From Leucobacter zeae (lineage in GTDB: Bacteria > Actinomycetota > Actinomycetes > Actinomycetales > Microbacteriaceae), in assembly GCF_016758175.1 (NCBI RefSeq), contig NZ_QYAB01000001.1, positions 1,385,162 to 1,449,161 of the forward strand: a stretch of DNA of 64,000 nucleotides, given 5' to 3'. Under the pieces are notes generated by a model that worked only from the letters and a program-made list of their open reading frames with translations, ran no database searches and was not told the origin of the DNA. Each line of letters begins with the position of its first letter. The first letter of the stretch is position 1. The position numbers and the translations under genes are program-made. Below, in pieces: positions 9,764 through 58,756 of the stretch.

Positions 9764-11236
9764 ATGTCCGAAACCACCGAGCAGGTCGCAGGCGCTTCGC
9801 AGAAGCCGCAGCCGCCCCGCGGCGCCTTCGACCGGTTCTTCCAGATCACCGCGCGGGGCTCGACGGTGCGCCAGGAGGTGCGGGGCGGGATCGTCGCCTT
9901 CGTCGCCATGGCGTACATCGTCGTGCTCAACCCGCTCATCCTCGGCGGCACGAGCGACGTCGCGGGCAACTCGCTCGAGTTCGCCCAGCTCACCGCCGTC
10001 ACCGGCCTTGTCGCCGGCACGATCACCATCCTCTTCGGAGTCGTCGCCCGGCTGCCGTTCGCGCTGGCCGCCGGACTCGGTATGAACAGCTTCCTCGCGG
10101 TCGCGGTCGTGCAGGACGTCTCGTGGCCCGAGGCCATGGGGCTCGTGATGATCAACGGCGTCATCATCGTGCTGCTCGGAGCCACGGGCATCCGCACCGC
10201 GATCTTCCACGCGGTGCCGCAGGAGCTGAAGGTCGCCATCACCGTCGGCATCGGCCTGTTCATCGCCTTCATCGGCTTCGTGAACTCCGGGTTCGTGACC
10301 CGTACGGCCGGCGGCCCGCCGGTGCAGCTCGGGCAGGGCGGCTCCATCTCGTCGCTGCCGACGCTGGTGTTCATCTTCGCGCTCATCCTGATCGGCGTGC
10401 TGGTCGCGCGGCGCGTTCCTGGCGGCATCCTCATCGGCATGGTCGTCTCGACCGTGCTCGCCATCATCATCCAGGCCATCGCCCACCTCGGCACGGTCGG
10501 CAACCCCGAGAATCCCGACCCGAACGGCTGGAACCTCACGGCACCCGAGATTCCGACGAGCATCGTCGCGCTGCCGGACTTCGGCCTGGTCGGCGCGTTC
10601 GACCTGCTCGGATCCTTCGAACGCATCGGCGCACTGGCCGCGGTCATGCTCGTCTTCACGCTCGTCTTCACGAACTTCTTCGATGCGATGGGCACGATGA
10701 CGGGGCTCGCGCGCAACGCCGGTCTCTCGAAGCCCGACGGCACCTTCCCGAACATCCGCTCCGCGTTCGTGATCGAGGGGCTCGGCGCGGTCGCAGGCGG
10801 AGGCGCCTCCGCGTCGTCGAACACGGTGTTCGTCGACGCGGCCGCAGGTATCGCCGAGGGTGCGCGCACCGGCTTCGCGGCCTGCATCACGGGCGCCCTC
10901 TTCCTCGTCTCGATGTTCTTCTCGCCGCTCATCGCGGTCATTCCGATGGAGGCGGGCGCGGCTGCGCTCGTCGTCGTCGGCGCGATGATGGTGACGCAGG
11001 TGCGCGAGATCGACATGACCGACTTCCGCGTCTCGCTCCCGGTGTTCCTGACGATGGTCTCGATGCCGCTGACCTACTCGATCGCGAACGGGATCGGGGT
11101 GGGCTTCATCTCGTGGACCCTCATCCACGTCATGAGCGGCCAGGCCAAGCGCGTGCACTGGCTGCTGTGGGTGACCTCGTTCGGGTTCCTGCTCTACTTC
11201 GTGCGCGGACCGATTCAGGCGGTGCTCGGCGGGTAG
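9764..11236 (+). CDS. NCS2 family purine permease (AzgA-like)
   Basis: Membrane transporter, 490 residues, 12-14 hydrophobic segments. It matches the AzgA/GhxP branch (hypoxanthine, guanine or adenine with protons): N-terminal VRGGIVAFVAMAYIVVLNP (about 36-55), AAGLGMNSF (about 104-112), NFFDAMGTMTGLARNAGL (about 303-320) and SSNTVFVDAAAGIAEGARTG (about 348-367). The start ATG 9764 follows GATGAGG; an ATG at 9752 is possible. The genes that follow (xanthine dehydrogenase and guanine deaminase) make guanine, hypoxanthine or xanthine the likely substrate. That is inference. Confidence 0.92.
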   Translation: MSETTEQVAGASQKPQPPRGAFDRFFQITARGSTVRQEVRGGIVAFVAMAYIVVLNPLILGGTSDVAGNSLEFAQLTAVTGLVAGTITILFGVVARLPFALAAGLGMNSFLAVAVVQDVSWPEAMGLVMINGVIIVLLGATGIRTAIFHAVPQELKVAITVGIGLFIAFIGFVNSGFVTRTAGGPPVQLGQGGSISSLPTLVFIFALILIGVLVARRVPGGILIGMVVSTVLAIIIQAIAHLGTVGNPENPDPNGWNLTAPEIPTSIVALPDFGLVGAFDLLGSFERIGALAAVMLVFTLVFTNFFDAMGTMTGLARNAGLSKPDGTFPNIRSAFVIEGLGAVAGGGASASSNTVFVDAAAGIAEGARTGFAACITGALFLVSMFFSPLIAVIPMEAGAAALVVVGAMMVTQVREIDMTDFRVSLPVFLTMVSMPLTYSIANGIGVGFISWTLIHVMSGQAKRVHWLLWVTSFGFLLYFVRGPIQAVLGG

Positions 11237-51362: not shown

Positions 51363-52889
51363 CTACGCGGCGTCGCCATCCCCGTCCCCAGCCTGCGGAT
51401 CCCCGGCGACCGGGAGACGCACCGCGAACACCGTGCGTCCGGGAGCGCTCTCGACCGTGATCTCCCCGTCGTGCGCGTGCACGATCGCCTGCGCGATCGA
51501 GAGCCCGAGGCCCGTGCTGCCCGCATCCCGGTTGCGCGACTGGTCGGCCCGGGCGAATCGCTCGAACAGCCGGTCGCGCAGCGCGGGGTCGACCCCTGGC
51601 CCGTCATCGCGCACCCGCAGCACGGCGTCGGCCCCGTCGCGCACCAGCGATACGGTCACCGTCGTCCCGGGCGGCGTGTGCGTCCGGGCGTTGCGCAGCA
51701 GGTTCGCCACGACCTGCCTGATCCGGTTCTCGTCTCCCGGGACGCTGATGAGCGCGTCGGACGCTTCGATCCGCCAGGTCCGGGCCGGGTCGGCCGCGTG
51801 CGCGTCGCTGACCGCGTCGACGGCGATCATCGTGAGCTCGACCGTGCCGGTTCCGAGACGCTGGCCGGCATCGAGCCGCGCGAGCAGCAGCAGGTCGTCC
51901 ACGAGCCCGGCCATGCGCTCGGACTCGGATTCGATGCGATCGAACGATCGTTCCTGGACCTCGGTCATCGTCCCGCCCTCGCGCAGCGAGAGCTGGGCGT
52001 ATCCGCGGATGGTCGCGAGCGGGGTCCGGAGCTCGTGGCTCGCGTCCGCGATGAATCGCCGCAGGCGCTCCTCGCTCTCCTGTCGCGCCGCGATCGACCG
52101 TTCCACATGGCCGAGCAGCCGGTTGAGCGACGCCCCGACCCGACCGACCTCGGTGCCGGGGTCGGTATCCCCGTCCGCGACGCGATCCGGGATCTCGACC
52201 TCGCCCTCGTTCAGCGGGATCTCCGAGACGCGGCCGGCCACCGCCGCGACGCGGTCGAGGGGGCGCAGTGAGCGCCGGACGAGCAGGAACCCGCCGATGA
52301 CGGCCGCGGACAGGATCACGGCACCCGTCGCCGTGATGATCACGACGGACGCGGTCGTGATCGCCGTCACGTCCTGCGTGGAGAGCCCCGCGATGACCGT
52401 CGTGGAACCGCTCGTCTCGACCGCGACCCTGAACGTGCCCAGATCGCCTCCCAGCGCCACGGTCACCGGTCGGCGCTCCCGGGGCGCGGCCGACAGGATC
52501 TCGTCGACCTGCTCCGAGGTGAGCCGGACCTCGGTGCCGTCGGGCCGGGCATAGCTCGATCCGAGGATCGCCCCGTCCGCCGCGACGAACGCCTGCAGGC
52601 TGCCGACGCGTGGCGCCGGCCCCTCGGACGCCGAGCCGCGGACCGGGCCGCGGTCGCCGGGGGACTCGGGGTCGCGACCCACTCCCGGCCCGCTCGCGAA
52701 CGCGAGTCCCTCGAGCACCTGCCCGTCGAGCCGGTCGAACGCGAAGGAGCGCAGCGCGAGCACCGTCGTGGCGCCCGTGACGATGAGCGCCGTCGCGACG
52801 AGCGCGCTCGACCCCACGACGAGCTTCCTCCTGAGTGTCCAGTCGCGGCGCGCCGATCGCCTCGGCGCCGGTGTCTCCGGCGACGTCAC
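51363..52889 (-). CDS. Two-component sensor histidine kinase
   Basis: 508 residues. Helix 1 at about 21-43 (VVGSSALVATALIVTGATTVLA), an extracytoplasmic sensor region of about 130 residues, helix 2 at about 170-195, then HAMP (about 195-265). The phosphoacceptor motif is FIADASHELRTPLATIRGY with His about 285. The ATPase domain has the N box LLRNARTHTPPG and G boxes DDGPGVDP and STGLGLSIAQAI. GTG start overlaps the stop of the response regulator gene. It presumably controls the divergent operon at 53753 or itself; the signal is unknown. Confidence 0.94.
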   Translation of the reverse strand: MTSPETPAPRRSARRDWTLRRKLVVGSSALVATALIVTGATTVLALRSFAFDRLDGQVLEGLAFASGPGVGRDPESPGDRGPVRGSASEGPAPRVGSLQAFVAADGAILGSSYARPDGTEVRLTSEQVDEILSAAPRERRPVTVALGGDLGTFRVAVETSGSTTVIAGLSTQDVTAITTASVVIITATGAVILSAAVIGGFLLVRRSLRPLDRVAAVAGRVSEIPLNEGEVEIPDRVADGDTDPGTEVGRVGASLNRLLGHVERSIAARQESEERLRRFIADASHELRTPLATIRGYAQLSLREGGTMTEVQERSFDRIESESERMAGLVDDLLLLARLDAGQRLGTGTVELTMIAVDAVSDAHAADPARTWRIEASDALISVPGDENRIRQVVANLLRNARTHTPPGTTVTVSLVRDGADAVLRVRDDGPGVDPALRDRLFERFARADQSRNRDAGSTGLGLSIAQAIVHAHDGEITVESAPGRTVFAVRLPVAGDPQAGDGDGDAA

Positions 52890-53620
52890 GGGAGCTCCTT
52901 GATCGTGTAGCCGACCCCGCGGACCGTGTGGATCAGGGGCCCTCCGAGCGGATCGAGCTTCTTGCGCAGGTACGAGATGTAGATCTCGACCACGCTCGAG
53001 GTGCCGCCGAAATCGAAGTTCCAGACGTGCTCGAGGATCTGGGTCCTGCTGAGGACTCGGCGCTCGTTCTGCATGAGGTAGCGGAGCAGGTCGAACTCCT
53101 TCGCGGTGAGGCGGACGGGGGTGCCCGCGCGTTCGACGTCGTAGGTCTCCTCGTCGAGCGTGAGGTCCCCGACTCGCAGCCGCGGATCCGATTCCGCGAG
53201 CGCGGCGACGTGCCTGCGCGCCATCCCGCGCAGTCGCGCGATGACCTCCTCGAGGTTGAAGGGCTTGGTCACGTAGTCGTCCCCGCCCGCGGAGATCCCC
53301 GCGATCCGATCCTCGACCGCGTCCTTGGCGGTGAGGAACAGCACGGGGACATCGTTGCCCCCGTCGCGCACCCGCTTGAGGAGCTCCATCCCGTCGAGCC
53401 CAGGCATCATGATGTCGAGGACCAGCAGGTCCGGTTCGAACTCGCGGATCACCTGCAGGGCGGTCTGCCCGTTCGTGACCGCGCGCGCATCCCAGCCCTC
53501 GTGCTGCAGCGCCATCCGCAGCAGTTCGCCGAGGTTCACCTCGTCGTCCACGACGAGCGCGCGGATGGGCGTCCCGTCGGGTCGGGACAGCTGCGATGCG
53601 CGGGGGAGGGCTGCGTTCAT
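52886..53620 (-). CDS. OmpR-family response regulator
   Basis: 244 residues. Receiver domain with acidic pocket VVDDE (about 23-27), phosphoacceptor Asp about 69 in VLDIMMPG, threonine in FLTAKD and lysine in VTKPFN. A C-terminal winged helix (about 150-242) ends in HTVRGVGYTIK. Located directly before its cognate kinase and divergent from the NAGPA-GT2-VTC operon. A 133-base divergent region separates them. The N-terminal 15 residues before the receiver are slightly longer than usual. Confidence 0.95.
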   Translation of the reverse strand: MNAALPRASQLSRPDGTPIRALVVDDEVNLGELLRMALQHEGWDARAVTNGQTALQVIREFEPDLLVLDIMMPGLDGMELLKRVRDGGNDVPVLFLTAKDAVEDRIAGISAGGDDYVTKPFNLEEVIARLRGMARRHVAALAESDPRLRVGDLTLDEETYDVERAGTPVRLTAKEFDLLRYLMQNERRVLSRTQILEHVWNFDFGGTSSVVEIYISYLRKKLDPLGGPLIHTVRGVGYTIKELP

Positions 53621-53752
53621 GCCTCCAGTCTCGCCGAATGCGCCCGTCCCGTCCGCTCAGCCGGGCGGACTCCAAGCGAAACCCGCGAATTCTTATGCTC
53701 CTCTTAGCTTCGGCTTCGCGGGGACTTATCCGGCGTGCGTATTCCTGGATGC
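53621..53752 (+). promoter_or_regulatory. Divergent control region with TTATGCTCC-TCTTAGCTT repeat and -10
   Basis: TATTCC at 53740-53745 ends seven bases before the ATG at 53753. The stretch TTCTTATGCTCCTCTTAGC near 53690-53708 contains imperfect direct repeats with roughly 10-base spacing, the usual form of OmpR-type regulator sites. It is less GC-rich than its flanks. Confidence 0.35.
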
Positions 53753-54817
53753 ATGGACATCGACATGACCCCAGCACCCGACGATCGGCGCGACCCCGTC
53801 GACCCGCAGCCCGCGCAGCAGGAAGCCGGGCCGGGCTCCCGGAAGGCCGATCGCGTCCGCGTCCGCCGACGCGGGATCATCCTCGCCGCATCCCTCGCGG
53901 TACTGCTCGGTACGACCGGAACCGCGGCGTGGGCCGCCGACCGCTACCTGGCGCCCCACGTCGAGGTGGCGGACGTCTCGGAGTACGAGGCGCAGCAGTC
54001 CGCGAGCGGGGCGGACGCGGACACCGGGTCGTCCGATGCCGCCGCGACGACGGAGGAGCCGCTCTCCGCAGACGGTTCCGCCCGCGGCGACACCGCGATC
54101 ACGGTCGAGCAGCGCACCGTAGGATCCGGCGACGACACCGTCGCCTACACCGTCGCCGACGTCGTGCTCGGAGACGCCACGGATCTCCGGTCCGCGTTCG
54201 CGAACGATCAGTTCGGCACGAACATCGTCGAGCAGACCAGCGAGATCGCCGCGGAGAACGGCGCCGTGTTCGCGGTCAACGGCGACTACTACGGCTTCCG
54301 CGACACCGGCATCGTCATTCGCAACGGCGTCGCCTACCGCGACGAGGGCGCGCGCGAAGGGCTCGCCTTCCGGCGGGACGGCAGCGTCGAGCTCTACGAC
54401 GAGACGGAGACGAGCGCCGATGCGCTGGTCGCCGACGGGGTCTGGAACACGCTGAGCTTCGGGCCGGGTCTCGTCGAGGGCGGCGAGATCGTCGCCGGGA
54501 TCGAGGACGCGGAGGTCGACACGAACTTCGGCAACCACTCGATCCAGGGCGAGCAGCCCCGGACCGCGGTCGGAGTGATCGACGAGAACCACCTGGTGTT
54601 CGTGGTGGTCGACGGGCGCGACCCCGGCTACAGCCGCGGGGTTACGATGACCGAGCTCGCGGAGATCATGCGCGACCTCGGCGCCGACACCGCGTACAAC
54701 CTCGACGGCGGCGGCTCCTCCACCATGTACTACGACGGAGCGGTGGTCAACCGGCCCTCGAACGGCGGCGAGCGCGGCACGAGCGACATCCTCTACATCG
54801 CGGGAGGCGCATCGTGA
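53753..54817 (+). CDS. Phosphodiester glycosidase (NAGPA/DUF2233) domain protein, membrane anchored
   Basis: 354 residues. A cytoplasmic N-terminus (1-37) is followed by one transmembrane/signal anchor (about 38-58, IILAASLAVLLGTTGTAAWA), an acidic Ser/Ala linker, then a NAGPA-type domain (about 115-352). Family motifs: VNGDYYGFRDTG (about 176-187), DTNFGNHSIQGEQPRTAVG and NLDGGGSSTMYYDG (about 315-328). The mammalian relative uncovers mannose-6-phosphate by removing GlcNAc from a phosphodiester; bacterial members act on sugar-phosphate envelope polymers. First gene of an envelope operon. ATG 53753 chosen by -10 distance; ATG 53765 is possible. Confidence 0.88.
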   Translation: MDIDMTPAPDDRRDPVDPQPAQQEAGPGSRKADRVRVRRRGIILAASLAVLLGTTGTAAWAADRYLAPHVEVADVSEYEAQQSASGADADTGSSDAAATTEEPLSADGSARGDTAITVEQRTVGSGDDTVAYTVADVVLGDATDLRSAFANDQFGTNIVEQTSEIAAENGAVFAVNGDYYGFRDTGIVIRNGVAYRDEGAREGLAFRRDGSVELYDETETSADALVADGVWNTLSFGPGLVEGGEIVAGIEDAEVDTNFGNHSIQGEQPRTAVGVIDENHLVFVVVDGRDPGYSRGVTMTELAEIMRDLGADTAYNLDGGGSSTMYYDGAVVNRPSNGGERGTSDILYIAGGAS

Positions 54818-55935
54818 TCATCCTGATCCCGGCATTCGAGCCGTCGGCGCGGCTGCCAGAACTCGTCGCCGAACTGCGGGCGGCCGATGGGGCGCTCCGG
54901 GTCGTCGTCGTCGACGACGGCTCCGGCGCACGATTCGCGAGCCGGTTCGCGGAGACCGCCGCCGCGGGCGCCGAAGTGCTGCGCCATCCCGTGAACCGCG
55001 GGAAGGGCGCCGCGCTGAAGACCGGGTTCCGCCACGTGGTCGGTCGGCACCCGGACGAGACCGTCGTCACCGCGGACGCCGACGGCCAGCACCTGGTCGA
55101 CGACATCCTGCGGGTGGGCGACGCATCTCGCCGGAGGTCCGCGACGGGCGACACGCGCACGATGGTGCTCGGCTGCCGCGCGTTCGACGGTGCGGTGCCG
55201 TGGCGGAGCCGTCTCGGCAACGACGGCTCGCGCGTCCTGTTCCGGATCGCCTCGGGCTGGTCGCTCTCGGATACGCAGACGGGCCTCCGGGCGATGCCGT
55301 GCGGCATGCTCGACTGGCTGCTCGAGGTGCCGGGCGAGCGCTTCGAGTACGAGCAGCGCGCGCTGCTGCGACTGCGGGGCGCGGGGTTCCGGGCGCACGA
55401 GGTGCCCATCCGCACGATCTACCTGGAGGAGAACGCCGCGAGCCACTTCCGCCCGCTGGCCGACTCCGTCCGGGTGCTGCTGCCCGTGCTGGCGTTCGCC
55501 GCGTCGTCGCTGGTCGCCGCCGTCGTCGACGCCGTCGCCCTGCTCGTCGGCACGGCGCTGACCGGAGCGCTGATCCCGTCGATCATCGCCGCGCGCGTGC
55601 TCAGCGCCGGAGTCAACTTCTGGATGAACCGGCGATTCGTGTTCCTGCGTCGGGGCCCGGCCGGTCTGCTGCGCGAAGCGGGCTCGTACGCCCTTCTCGC
55701 CGCGCTGCTGCTCGTATCGAACATCGTCTGGCTGTCGTTCCTCACGGAGCGGCTCGGCTGGCCGCTCTGGATCGCGAAGCTCGCCACCGAGCTCGTGCTC
55801 TGGTGCACGAGCTTCGGGGTGCAGCGGTCCGCGGTGTTCGGTCGACCCGACGCAGGGCCCGCACCCGTTCCCGCCTCGCCGCCTCGACCCGCTTCCGTCC
55901 CCGTCCCGTCCAGCGCCCTCAGGAGCCAGCCATGA
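54814..55935 (+). CDS. Glycosyltransferase family 2 fused to GtrA-like membrane domain
   Basis: 373 residues. N-terminal GT-A domain (about 1-215) with VVVVDDGSG, HPVNRGKGAALKTGF and the metal motif TADADGQH (about 89-96). Likely makes a polyprenyl-phosphate sugar, as in DPM1-like enzymes. The C-terminal GtrA domain (about 220-345) has four hydrophobic helices and the motif NFWMNRRFVFLR (about 268-279) typical of the family. Fusion of synthase and flippase suggests a supply of lipid-linked sugar outside the cell. GTG overlaps the upstream stop. Confidence 0.92.
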   Translation: MIILIPAFEPSARLPELVAELRAADGALRVVVVDDGSGARFASRFAETAAAGAEVLRHPVNRGKGAALKTGFRHVVGRHPDETVVTADADGQHLVDDILRVGDASRRRSATGDTRTMVLGCRAFDGAVPWRSRLGNDGSRVLFRIASGWSLSDTQTGLRAMPCGMLDWLLEVPGERFEYEQRALLRLRGAGFRAHEVPIRTIYLEENAASHFRPLADSVRVLLPVLAFAASSLVAAVVDAVALLVGTALTGALIPSIIAARVLSAGVNFWMNRRFVFLRRGPAGLLREAGSYALLAALLLVSNIVWLSFLTERLGWPLWIAKLATELVLWCTSFGVQRSAVFGRPDAGPAPVPASPPRPASVPVPSSALRSQP

Positions 55936-56507
55936 CCACCGCCCACCTCGCCCTCATCGCCGTCGACCTCGTCGCGGCCCTGATCCTGACCTTCGCCCTG
56001 TACTTCCCGCGCCACCGCAGGCGCGACCTCGTCGTCGCCTTCCTGGGCGTCAACGTCGGAGTCCTCGCGGTGACGAGCGTGCTCGGCTCCACCGAGATCG
56101 CCGCGGGGCTCGGGCTCGGGCTGTTCGGTGTGCTGTCGATCATCCGCCTCCGTTCCTCCGAGATCTCCCAGCGCGAGGTGGCGTACTACTTCGCCGCACT
56201 CGCGATGGGGCTCATCGGCGGCCTGTCCCCGGCGAGCTCCCCGCTTCCGGCGCTCCTGATCGCGCTCATCCTCATCGTCATGTGGGCGGCGGACCATCCC
56301 GCGCTGCTCAGCCGGAACCGGCATCAGCTGGTGCGGCTCGACCGGGGTCTCAGCGATGAGGACGAGCTGCGCGGTGAACTCGAACGGCGGCTCGGCGGTC
56401 GCATCACCGCGTTCACCGTGCAGGACCTCGACTTCGTGAACGACACCACGCTCGTCGATGTCCGGTACCGCCTGCCCCGCGAGGCGTCCGTGCGGAGCCT
56501 CGCATGA
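55932..56507 (+). CDS. DUF4956 membrane protein
   Basis: 191 residues. Four hydrophobic segments (about 4-24, 33-53, 56-80 with the conserved loop FGVLSIIRLRSSEISQREVAY, and 95-120). A cytoplasmic C-terminal tail (about 125-191) of ferredoxin-like composition ends DTTLVDVRYRLP. DUF4956 proteins are commonly encoded next to VTC-type polyphosphate polymerases, as here. Possibly the membrane partner or channel for the polymer; inference. ATG overlaps the preceding stop after an AGGAG site. The VTC gene overlaps its stop. Confidence 0.9.
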   Translation: MTTAHLALIAVDLVAALILTFALYFPRHRRRDLVVAFLGVNVGVLAVTSVLGSTEIAAGLGLGLFGVLSIIRLRSSEISQREVAYYFAALAMGLIGGLSPASSPLPALLIALILIVMWAADHPALLSRNRHQLVRLDRGLSDEDELRGELERRLGGRITAFTVQDLDFVNDTTLVDVRYRLPREASVRSLA

Positions 56508-57334
56508 GCGCCCTGCTGACCGAGGCGCTCGGCGGTCTCGCAGCGGTCGGCCTCGACGAGCTGAACGCGCGCGCCGAGCTGCTCACGCGCGTCGATCGGA
56601 AGTACCTGGTGCCCGTCACCGCGGCGGTCGACGGGCTGGAGGCGATGCGCGGCACCGCGCGTGCGCTCGACTTCGGTGCCGCGCGCTCGCCGCGCTACTC
56701 CTCGGTGTACTTCGACACCCCCGACCGGCTGAGCTACCGCCTCGCGGCGCAGGCGAGGCGGCGGCGGTTCAAGGTGCGCACCCGCTGCTACGAGGACACC
56801 GGCACCGCCTACCTCGAGATGAAGACGAAGGGCGGTCGCGGCGCGACGGTCAAGGAGCGGATGGAGATCGATCCGGGGGACGTCGCGCGCTTGACGGGGG
56901 CGGGCGGCGCGTACGTCTCGGAGGCGCTCGAGACGATCGGCTACGACCCGGGGCTCCGCGACGCGCTGCGGCCGGCGCTCGTCACCCGCTACCGCCGGGC
57001 CACGCTCCTCCTCCCCGACGACAGCCGGGCCACCGTGGATACCGACCTCGAATGGATCGATCCCATGGGGCGCTCGCTCACGCTGCCGGGATTCACGATC
57101 CTCGAGTCGAAATCCGCTGGGCGCGCGTCCGCCGTCGATCGCTGGCTCTGGCGCCGCGGCATCCGCCCGCAGAGCATCAGTAAGTTCGGCACGGGGCTCG
57201 CCGCGCTGCACCCCGAACTGCCCGGCAACAAGTGGCACCGGCTCATCGAGGGGCCGTTCGCGCAGGCGCCCCGCGTCTCCCCGGCCCCGTCGACCCGCCG
57301 CCTCCCGATCCACCGATCCACCCGTACCTCCTGA
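56504..57334 (+). CDS. VTC-domain polyphosphate polymerase
   Basis: 276 residues with the CYTH/VTC tunnel fold, related to the catalytic domain of yeast Vtc4. Basic and acidic tunnel residues are visible: RVDRKYLVP (about 29-37), YFDTPDRLSYR (about 70-80), RRRFKVRTRCY (about 87-97), LEMKTKGGRGATVKER (about 106-121), VTRYRRATLLLPD (about 163-175), DTDLEW (about 182-187) and ILESKSAGR (about 201-209). Predicted to make polyphosphate from ATP in the cytoplasm. It lacks an SPX domain, as bacterial forms do. Overlaps DUF4956 by four bases. Confidence 0.9.
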   Translation: MSALLTEALGGLAAVGLDELNARAELLTRVDRKYLVPVTAAVDGLEAMRGTARALDFGAARSPRYSSVYFDTPDRLSYRLAAQARRRRFKVRTRCYEDTGTAYLEMKTKGGRGATVKERMEIDPGDVARLTGAGGAYVSEALETIGYDPGLRDALRPALVTRYRRATLLLPDDSRATVDTDLEWIDPMGRSLTLPGFTILESKSAGRASAVDRWLWRRGIRPQSISKFGTGLAALHPELPGNKWHRLIEGPFAQAPRVSPAPSTRRLPIHRSTRTS

Positions 57335-57346
57335 AAGGGGAACCCC

Positions 57347-58756
57347 ATGCACACACTCGGACGCACCCGGCTCGCGGCGATCGCCGCGGTGGCCCTCACC
57401 GGAACGCTCCTCGCGGGATGCTCCGCGGTCTCCGCGGGCGACGCCGCAGCGCAGGCGACCTCGACGGCCGCGGCGAGCGCCGTCACCGGAGACCTCGCAC
57501 CAGAGTCGGTGCTCGGCGACAACACCGAGGCGTCGACTCTGGGCGACGACGAGTGGGACGCGGCGGACGCCGTCGCCGTGCGGCTCGACGGCGGCGACGC
57601 GACGACGGACGGCGCCGGCGTCGAGGTCGCGACCGGCACGATCACGATCACCGACGCCGGCGTCTACCGCCTGAGCGGCGACTTCGACGGGCAGGTCTCC
57701 GTGCAGGCCCCCGACGACGCGGAGGTGGTGCTGATCCTCGACGGCGCGACGATCACGAACGCGGACGGGGCCGCGATCGACATCGTGACGGCGGGCGACG
57801 CCGCGATCCACCTCGCAGACGGCAGCAGGAACGCCGTGACCGACGCCGAGTCCTACGCGGACGACGCGACGGCGAGCGCGGCGATCGCCGCCGACGCCGA
57901 TCTGACGATCTCGGGAACCGGCGCACTCGTCGTGAACGGCCGTGGAAACGACGGGATCTCCTCGACCGACGACCTCGTCGTCCTCTCGGGCGACGTCACC
58001 GTCACCGCGGCGGACGACGCGCTGCGCGGGAAGGACGCGCTCGTCATCGCCGGAGGGGACCTCGACCTCACCGCGACGGGCGGAGACGGGCTGAAGAGCG
58101 ACCAGGAGGACGACGAGGCGCGCGGATACGTGCTCGTGTCCGGCGGGAGCATCGGGATCACCGCTGGGGACGACGGCGTTCAGGCGCAGACGGACGCGGT
58201 CGTCACCGGCGGCGAGCTCACCGTCTCCGCTGCCGACGACGGCGTGAAGGCCGAGCAGATCGTCTCGGTCGGGGGCGGCCGGATCACGGTGACCGCCTCC
58301 ACCGAGGCGATGGAGGCGGTCGACGTCGCCGTCTTCGACGGGGTCCTCTCGCTCACCGCCTCCGATGACGGGATCAACGCCGCCGGTCTCAACGCGGGCG
58401 GTGCCGAGCGCGAGACCGACACCGGGGAGCGGCTCGAGGTGTCGGGCGGGGAACTGGTGATCGTCGCCGGGAAGGACGGGCTCGACTCGAACGGGGCGAT
58501 CTCGGTGACCGGAGGGACGCTGACCATCACGAGCGCGGACAACGGCGGAGACGCCCCGCTCGACGCGAACGGCACGGTCGCCGTGGCCGACGGCGTGGAG
58601 ATCACCGCGAACGGCGCCGCATACGATCCGACGGCGGCCCGGCGCGGCCCGGGCGGGTTCGGCGCCTCCGGCGGCGGGATGCCGGATGGCGGGGCGCCTG
58701 GCGGGGCGCCGGAGGGCCGTCCCGGCGGCGGAACCGAGGGCACCGCTGGCGCCTGA
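57347..58756 (+). CDS. DUF4353 (carbohydrate-binding-like) lipoprotein
   Basis: 469 residues. Lipoprotein signal with lipobox LLAGC (Cys about 25). The mature protein is built from repeating beta-rich units of DUF4353 type: YRLSGDFDGQVSV, AEVVLILDGATITNADGAAI, then runs of GDDGVQAQ, ADDGVKAE, SDDGINA and GKDGLDSNG, which suggest a calcium-rich beta-helix. Gly/Pro-rich tail. Highly acidic. In many Gram-positives DUF4353 genes accompany VTC and DUF4956 genes, often with a CotH kinase, absent here. Probably anchored on the outer face of the membrane, binding polysaccharide or ions. AAAGGGG site before ATG. Confidence 0.88.
   Translation: MHTLGRTRLAAIAAVALTGTLLAGCSAVSAGDAAAQATSTAAASAVTGDLAPESVLGDNTEASTLGDDEWDAADAVAVRLDGGDATTDGAGVEVATGTITITDAGVYRLSGDFDGQVSVQAPDDAEVVLILDGATITNADGAAIDIVTAGDAAIHLADGSRNAVTDAESYADDATASAAIAADADLTISGTGALVVNGRGNDGISSTDDLVVLSGDVTVTAADDALRGKDALVIAGGDLDLTATGGDGLKSDQEDDEARGYVLVSGGSIGITAGDDGVQAQTDAVVTGGELTVSAADDGVKAEQIVSVGGGRITVTASTEAMEAVDVAVFDGVLSLTASDDGINAAGLNAGGAERETDTGERLEVSGGELVIVAGKDGLDSNGAISVTGGTLTITSADNGGDAPLDANGTVAVADGVEITANGAAYDPTAARRGPGGFGASGGGMPDGGAPGGAPEGRPGGGTEGTAGA

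Follow-up and report, generated by a model that had tools for sequence, protein, structure and literature searches.

The closest known counterpart of the locus reported here is a module of Gram-positive bacteria in which genes for DUF4956, CotH and a polyphosphate polymerase accompany the pel genes (PMC7112168). In the pel locus of Streptococcus intermedius the protein SIR_1592 is described as joining an ACT domain to an MgtC membrane domain; its deletion raises Pel and lowers aggregation, and deletion of the CotH gene lowers Pel (PMC12345266). We take SIR_1592, by its place and description and not by its sequence, for the counterpart of the DUF4956 protein, and a relation to MgtC is thus already in print for it (PMC12345266). 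MgtC itself is reported to modulate PhoR and ATP synthase (PMC12345266, PMC6658541), and in yeast the VTC complex, with the catalytic domain in Vtc4, couples polyphosphate synthesis with translocation along a positive path (PMC9911596). Here we describe, in a 64,000-nucleotide stretch of Leucobacter zeae DNA (the window), a five-gene envelope operon at 53753-58756 that is real and conserved, is probably regulated, and is in our judgment a CotH-free variant of the published CotH-polyphosphate polymerase-DUF4956 module.

The five co-directional genes, as given by their open reading frames and Pfam matches, are:

53753..54817, + strand: NAGPA phosphodiester glycosidase (Pfam NAGPA, 2.2e-42)
54814..55935, + strand: GT2-GtrA, with a GTG start (Glycos_transf_2, 1.5e-13; GtrA_DPMS_TM, 1.8e-12)
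55932..56507, + strand: DUF4956 membrane protein (Pfam DUF4956, 5.6e-64)
56504..57334, + strand: VTC-domain triphosphate-tunnel enzyme, a predicted polyphosphate polymerase (Pfam VTC, 1.7e-22)
57347..58756, + strand: Cthe_2159 (DUF4353) beta-helix lipoprotein (Pfam Cthe_2159, 3.4e-74)

Three of the four junctions are 4-base overlaps (GTGA, ATGA and ATGA), the VTC/Cthe_2159 junction is a 12-base gap, and genes for an OmpR-type regulator and its kinase diverge from the operon, an architecture on which these data agree with an earlier, sequence-only reading of the window. Like the pel-associated module, the operon sets a VTC-type polymerase gene beside DUF4956 (MgtC plus ACT in the published case) and has a link to envelope polysaccharide; unlike that module, it adds Cthe_2159, NAGPA, GT2-GtrA and a two-component system (TCS) and has no CotH, for which a search of the whole genome at E 0.001, in keeping with the absence already noted for the cluster, gave no match.

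The most useful result of the analysis is the strict pairing of DUF4956 with VTC. In a phylum sample of 246 genomes DUF4956 is present in 25 and VTC in exactly those 25 (kinship among the 25 being uncorrected), and every one of the 27 DUF4956 matches has a same-strand VTC gene within 360 bases, with DUF4956 first in 11 pairs and VTC first in 16. These counts include a DUF4956 match at a contig end in G280 that falls below the curated cut-off, a genome (G155) whose two matches both contain a stop, and two VTC genes that were each hit in two pieces and merged by hand. As 27 of the 28 VTC genes adjoin DUF4956, a function assigned to either family should include the other, and DUF4956, a family with no named function, thereby gains a specific partner hypothesis. 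PMC12345266 reports that its three-gene arrangement was not found outside pel; the two-gene pair occurs here in 25 of 246 genomes, in which pel genes were not searched for. Among 60 genomes of relatives (the genome of origin included) DUF4956 is found in 20, with VTC and Cthe_2159 in 19 each and CotH in four, all within those 20; a NAGPA domain of any kind is found in 18. Both DUF4956 and VTC match in the same three only of 14 named control genomes, namely Bacteroides ihuae, Corynebacterium glutamicum and Methanosarcina acetivorans, representing Bacteroidota, Actinomycetota and Archaea. A search of a limited set of papers found none that names DUF4956 together with a VTC domain or with MgtC. 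Separately, at G008:C123:14190-16095 a CotH gene is directly preceded by a short, sub-threshold DUF4956-like match (25 bits), apart from the main DUF4956-VTC pair of that genome.

The wider neighborhood was compared over 80 loci, the best of 207 stretches with a DUF4956 relative among 322 candidates and therefore near relatives, using hidden Markov models built from the window proteins and the loci collected by then. VTC is present in 78 of the 80, always 3' of DUF4956, and Cthe_2159 in 70, immediately 3' of VTC in 68. NAGPA and GT2-GtrA occur in the identical 45 loci, neither ever alone, and directly 5' of DUF4956 in 43 of them. The five genes are thus a core, DUF4956-VTC-Cthe_2159, joined by an optional pair, NAGPA plus GT2-GtrA; the co-occurrence anticipated from the sequence alone holds, and the treatment of the five families as one set holds for the core. 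A chance neighborhood was ruled out, since the operon's gene order recurs with other flanks (the window's miaA, dapF and hflX lie beside none of the 80 other loci, and its deaminase gene beside a few) and the DUF4956 and VTC genome sets are identical. The commonest other neighbor family within 8 kb, an ABC-ATPase-like open reading frame family judged by eye, reaches 17 of 81 loci and the next 10. In one locus (L047) the contig stops just after DUF4956. Elsewhere VTC is split in two pieces (L044, 10688-11481), or VTC and Cthe_2159 are each split in two (L098, 10624-13127), as decayed genes or through sequencing errors, and in Leucobacter sp. OH1287 (L068, 8261-11474) the lipoprotein gene is shifted to the front, giving the order Cthe_2159-DUF4956-VTC.

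We tentatively favor, at a little below even confidence, a regulated envelope module arranged around a two-protein polyphosphate unit, VTC plus DUF4956, with a sugar arm and a lipoprotein. In such a module, the cytosolic VTC enzyme would work on the inner side of the membrane, building polyphosphate from the gamma-phosphate of ATP, and DUF4956, as an MgtC-like membrane protein, would hold and gate the enzyme, so that polyphosphate would pass to, or affect, the cell surface. There the acidic Cthe_2159 lipoprotein would bind a polysaccharide or polyanion, perhaps via calcium, while GT2-GtrA would make a polyprenyl-phosphate-sugar and flip the sugar outward, and NAGPA would use its phosphodiester bond to release the sugar or transfer it to a surface acceptor. 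The divergent TCS would control the promoter via a direct repeat that lies at about -50/-61 relative to the start, which is probably leaderless. In this form the sequence-only proposal of a phosphate-containing matrix under signal control stands as regards the unit, the pairing and a promoter-proximal site, which are seen; polyphosphate synthesis, export, a sugar product and binding by the regulator are what the module would presuppose.

The part assigned to DUF4956 depends on its kinship. The predicted model (pLDDT 86.3) has five helices in its membrane part, against four by hydropathy scan, and a C-terminal alpha-beta domain. Residues invariant in near relatives cluster at the ends of helices 1-2 and 3-4, which we take to be cytosolic, and an invariant R-x-R (R72, R74) closes helix 3. 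The phylum sample supplied 17 aligned homologues, of which 13 are divergent (below 150 bits), and Y24, R72 and R74 are kept in all 17; with the sequence model used there, two further loci gave no DUF4956 hit and were omitted, the cut G280 match and an orphan VTC locus. The latter (L175, G260:C1:2974500-2979500) lies in a genome that also has two paired copies. Profile-profile comparison of 12 DUF4956 relatives with eight MgtC/SapB proteins gave 95.5% probability (E 1.5e-8), and with 18 relatives the probability rose to 96.8%, over 219 columns (E 2.2e-10), these being single-comparison E-values with two of the eight MgtC/SapB rows cut at an end; controls with GtrA and with a reversed profile stayed at or below 1.3%. 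By these profiles DUF4956 is a remote relative of MgtC/SapB over both the transmembrane and the C-terminal domains, and it aligns over most of its length with the profile of Escherichia coli YhiD and its relatives. It differs from that family in pairing with VTC, in carrying the invariant R-x-R and in having no Pfam MgtC match up to E 10, a search in which most weak matches are removed by the HMMER filters; of three divergent relatives, two do match Pfam MgtC, at 0.003 and 0.11, both below cut-off. Against the PDB, sequence searches of DUF4956 gave nothing up to E 1 and Foldseek nothing confident (best E 0.06), and the best VIA-align Z, 7.9, lies in the commonly seen range, in a set from which MgtC is absent, so that this comparison excludes nothing.

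The MgtC relation would suit the strongest alternative, which we hold to be somewhat unlikely: DUF4956 would be MgtC-like and regulate the balance of ATP or phosphate, anchoring and controlling VTC, with polyphosphate as a cytosolic store or signal and with the sugar arm and the lipoprotein separately recruited under the same TCS. That MgtC targets PhoR (PMC6658541) is consistent with it, as are the profile scores with their low controls and the want of a confident PDB match. A cytosolic store sits poorly, however, with a lipoprotein-family gene following VTC in those 68 of 80 loci and with the exopolysaccharide phenotype caused by deleting the presumed S. intermedius counterpart (PMC12345266), and PPK1 could already serve such a store. 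A bolder form of the envelope module, which we regard as rather improbable, would make VTC plus DUF4956 a prokaryotic two-protein counterpart of the eukaryotic VTC complex, in which a soluble polymerase, docked on the MgtC-like membrane protein, would have its polyphosphate threaded outward during synthesis, along a surface route of bacteria and archaea separate from PPK1, with NAGPA acting as a transglycosylase that decorates the chain or its anchor from a polyprenyl-phosphate-sugar. If the pair does export polyphosphate, it would constitute a second, surface-aimed bacterial polyphosphate pathway that would influence biofilm, metal binding and adhesion.

The enzyme itself, of 276 residues, carries a VTC domain (80.6 bits against a curated cut-off of 23), no other Pfam domain at E 0.01 and hence no SPX, and no transmembrane segment by hydropathy. 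A profile search matches yeast Vtc4 at 6.1e-06, and Foldseek with the predicted model (pLDDT 94.3) again places Vtc4 best (5.5e-13); VIA-align superposes it on Vtc4 (3g3r) with Z 17.4 over 210 residues at 2.9 A, against Z of at most 13.9 for non-VTC tunnel enzymes. K33, R92, R94, E105, K107, R165, R175, E201, K203 and K227 are unchanged in a 39-sequence alignment, and their assignment to Vtc4 tunnel and metal roles, made by motif and recall and not by residue-by-residue alignment, indicates that the basic tunnel residues and the metal-binding Glu are kept. Neither an absence of conserved linkage among relatives nor a loss of tunnel residues on structural modeling, the two outcomes on which the sequence-only reading had staked itself, was thus found. 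Compared with the yeast complex, the window protein is predicted to have the same tunnel fold with conserved tunnel residues, but it lacks SPX and membrane domains, its membrane partner is MgtC-like, and any export of polymer would be hypothetical. We accordingly speak of a predicted polyphosphate polymerase, going by sequence and model; since the genome also encodes a kinase of PPK1 type, VTC would be one of at least two polyphosphate enzymes in it. That the protein is instead a triphosphatase or phosphotransferase, priming or phosphorylating a glycan or lipid carrier, appears decidedly unlikely: the tunnel fold does include tripolyphosphatases and thiamine triphosphatases (Z about 8 to 14), but Vtc4 leads by both sequence and structure, and the Pfam match is to VTC.

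The last core gene encodes a protein with a lipobox (LAGC) and a Gly/Pro-rich tail that is strongly acidic (76 D/E against 16 K/R), and its Cthe_2159 domain scores 249.9 bits, above cut-off, with a match to 4peu at 1.7e-37. We take this family, PF14262, to be the former DUF4353. It has solved structures (4peu and 4phb), and binding of cellulose and polygalacturonic acid is described for it (PMC6712302), so that the earlier statement that DUF4353 has no agreed role is in part dated. The window protein is of the same family as Clostridium thermocellum Cthe_2159 (4peu, 4phb) and differs in being a lipoprotein, in its Gly/Pro-rich tail and in being encoded with VTC and DUF4956.

In the optional pair, NAGPA has a single N-terminal transmembrane anchor by hydropathy, with the enzyme presumably outside the membrane. 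Its domain (145.6 bits) has an NLDGGGS motif aligned with 6ozd and 6u11 and matches structures of N-acetylglucosamine-1-phosphodiester alpha-N-acetylglucosaminidase and bacterial homologues; NAGPA enzymes cleave sugar-1-phosphodiesters. GT2-GtrA has two membrane segments in its C-terminal half (hydropathy), and its GT2 domain is nearest to polyprenyl-phosphate sugar synthases: it is of the same kind as the polyprenyl-phospho-GalNAc synthase PpgS, but is GtrA-fused and, at 71.8 bits, far under the equivalog cut-off of 370. A polyprenyl-phosphate-sugar being itself a sugar-1-phosphodiester would explain why the two genes are so strictly paired, and the arm suggests a use of such sugars with no need for a GT-C enzyme. 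The remaining alternative, a teichoic-acid-type sugar-phosphate polymer made or trimmed here, with NAGPA trimming and VTC supplying phosphate, draws on the NAGPA structural matches and on the shared 45 loci, but is very improbable given that 35 of the 80 loci have neither gene in the available DNA and that no other neighbor family exceeds 17 of 81 loci within 8 kb, a survey in which teichoic-acid and LCP models were not searched. In one genome (G033) NAGPA, GT2-GtrA, regulator and kinase form a separate locus (L114) far from the DUF4956-VTC-Cthe_2159 core, showing that the TCS can accompany the sugar pair. Another locus (L025) has just a weak NAGPA trace (23 bits), located between TCS and core and immediately 5' of DUF4956 at 10010, which would fit a loss of the sugar arm with retention of the core.

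The regulatory genes, the promoter region and the flanks comprise:

51353: end of a GNAT-like gene, the left flank of the cluster
51363..52889, - strand: sensor histidine kinase, with a GTG start and two transmembrane segments (HisKA, HATPase_c)
52886..53620, - strand: OmpR/PhoB-type response regulator (Pfam Response_reg/Trans_reg_C)
53691..53707, + strand: direct repeat TCTTATGCTCC/TCTTAG with an 11-base period, the proposed regulator site
53740..53745, + strand: proposed -10 hexamer TATTCC, 7 bases ahead of the NAGPA ATG
58806: start of dapF, the right flank of the cluster

The regulator and kinase genes also overlap by 4 bases, and the kinase has a HAMP-like region below cut-off. The expected linkage to the TCS is recovered in 15 of the 80 loci (six upstream on the same strand, four upstream and divergent, four downstream on the same strand, one downstream on the opposite strand), at cut-offs of 300 bits for the regulator and 600 for the kinase and with models partly built from the linked genes themselves; it does not extend to exclusiveness, as related kinases and regulators occur in genomes with no DUF4956 (G004, G048, G053), which rules out the TCS as an exclusive partner. 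Together with 12 cluster-linked Microbacterium kinases the window kinase forms a group of 13 (support 97/97), outside which the linked kinases of the Leucobacter loci L025, L029 and L121 fall; across 17 linked kinases the tree needs three gains or losses, of which well-supported branches force two or more. Nine unlinked TCS loci show no common neighbor theme plain by eye, no family search having been made.

The direct repeat is placed about -50/-61 from the NAGPA ATG, and its exact pattern occurs once in the genome, at the operon. A wide regulon was ruled out: at one mismatch the search gives three places in the genome against seven for a reversed control, which leaves just the exact occurrence at the operon. 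Of 44 NAGPA loci (the window included), 28 could be anchored and 16 were dropped, L029 being one that could not be anchored, and removal of redundancy at 70% identity reduced the 28 to 22. Fourteen of these 22 upstream regions have an element YYHYAG (TCTTAG, TCTCAG or TCATAG) at -50/-51 from the ATG, a number that none of 2000 rotations reaches (highest 7) in a test made post hoc, the pattern having been chosen after looking. The window's -50 element is the second half of the 11-base direct repeat. Of the 44 loci, 28 have a TANNNN hexamer that precedes the start by 6-8 bases, a count that is partly by construction because the search sought TA near the start, and the NAGPA transcript is possibly leaderless. 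Several loci with no linked TCS keep the -50 element, and a regulator encoded elsewhere may act on them. The direct repeat is a candidate site for the regulator, and the operon is probably switchable by the TCS; the divergent regulator with its proposed operator is a switch open to laboratory testing.

A number of observations weigh against the regulated envelope module that we favor. The pairing has exceptions: one VTC gene (in G260) has no adjacent DUF4956, one genome (G057) has DUF4956 with no VTC match, and one locus (L091) has DUF4956 with neither VTC nor Cthe_2159 within the 10 kb examined. Cthe_2159 is undetected in 10 of the 80 loci, some of them at contig ends, and of the 35 loci lacking the sugar pair 31 have more than 3 kb of upstream sequence. 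In DUF4956, R27, R30 and R31 are mostly lost in divergent homologues and R72 and R74 survive, and by its sequence profile the protein appears to resemble MgtC, a described modulator, and not any channel known so far. The tunnel domain of Vtc2, presumably not the catalytic subunit, also scores high (Z 15.6), so fold alone is no proof of catalysis. An acidic Cthe_2159 protein would not hold a polyanion without cations, and two TCS-linked loci (L071 and L080) lack the -50 element. Finally, S. intermedius without its polyphosphate polymerase gene still aggregates, and alterations are reported for the SIR_1592 and CotH mutants only (PMC12345266).

The operon and the TCS make up all seven genes of a 7.45-kb interval between the GNAT-like gene and dapF. 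GC content shows no break at the cluster, and Rfam gives no match within the window. A dapF search of 37 genomes of the genus matched 35 and yielded 30 loci; among the 29 other than the window, nine have the GNAT gene at most 100 bases from dapF and none has Cthe_2159 in the 1.5 kb next to it, so that the operon and TCS sit here as a 7.45-kb unit. The nearest named relatives of the locus are in Leucobacter and Microbacterium. The core DUF4956-VTC-Cthe_2159 is also encoded in Leucobacter celer subsp. astrifaciens CBX151 (L022) and L. musarum subsp. musarum CBX152 (L061), which we take to be the strains that glue nematodes into "worm-stars"; these strains offer a place to ask whether the core is linked to surface stickiness.

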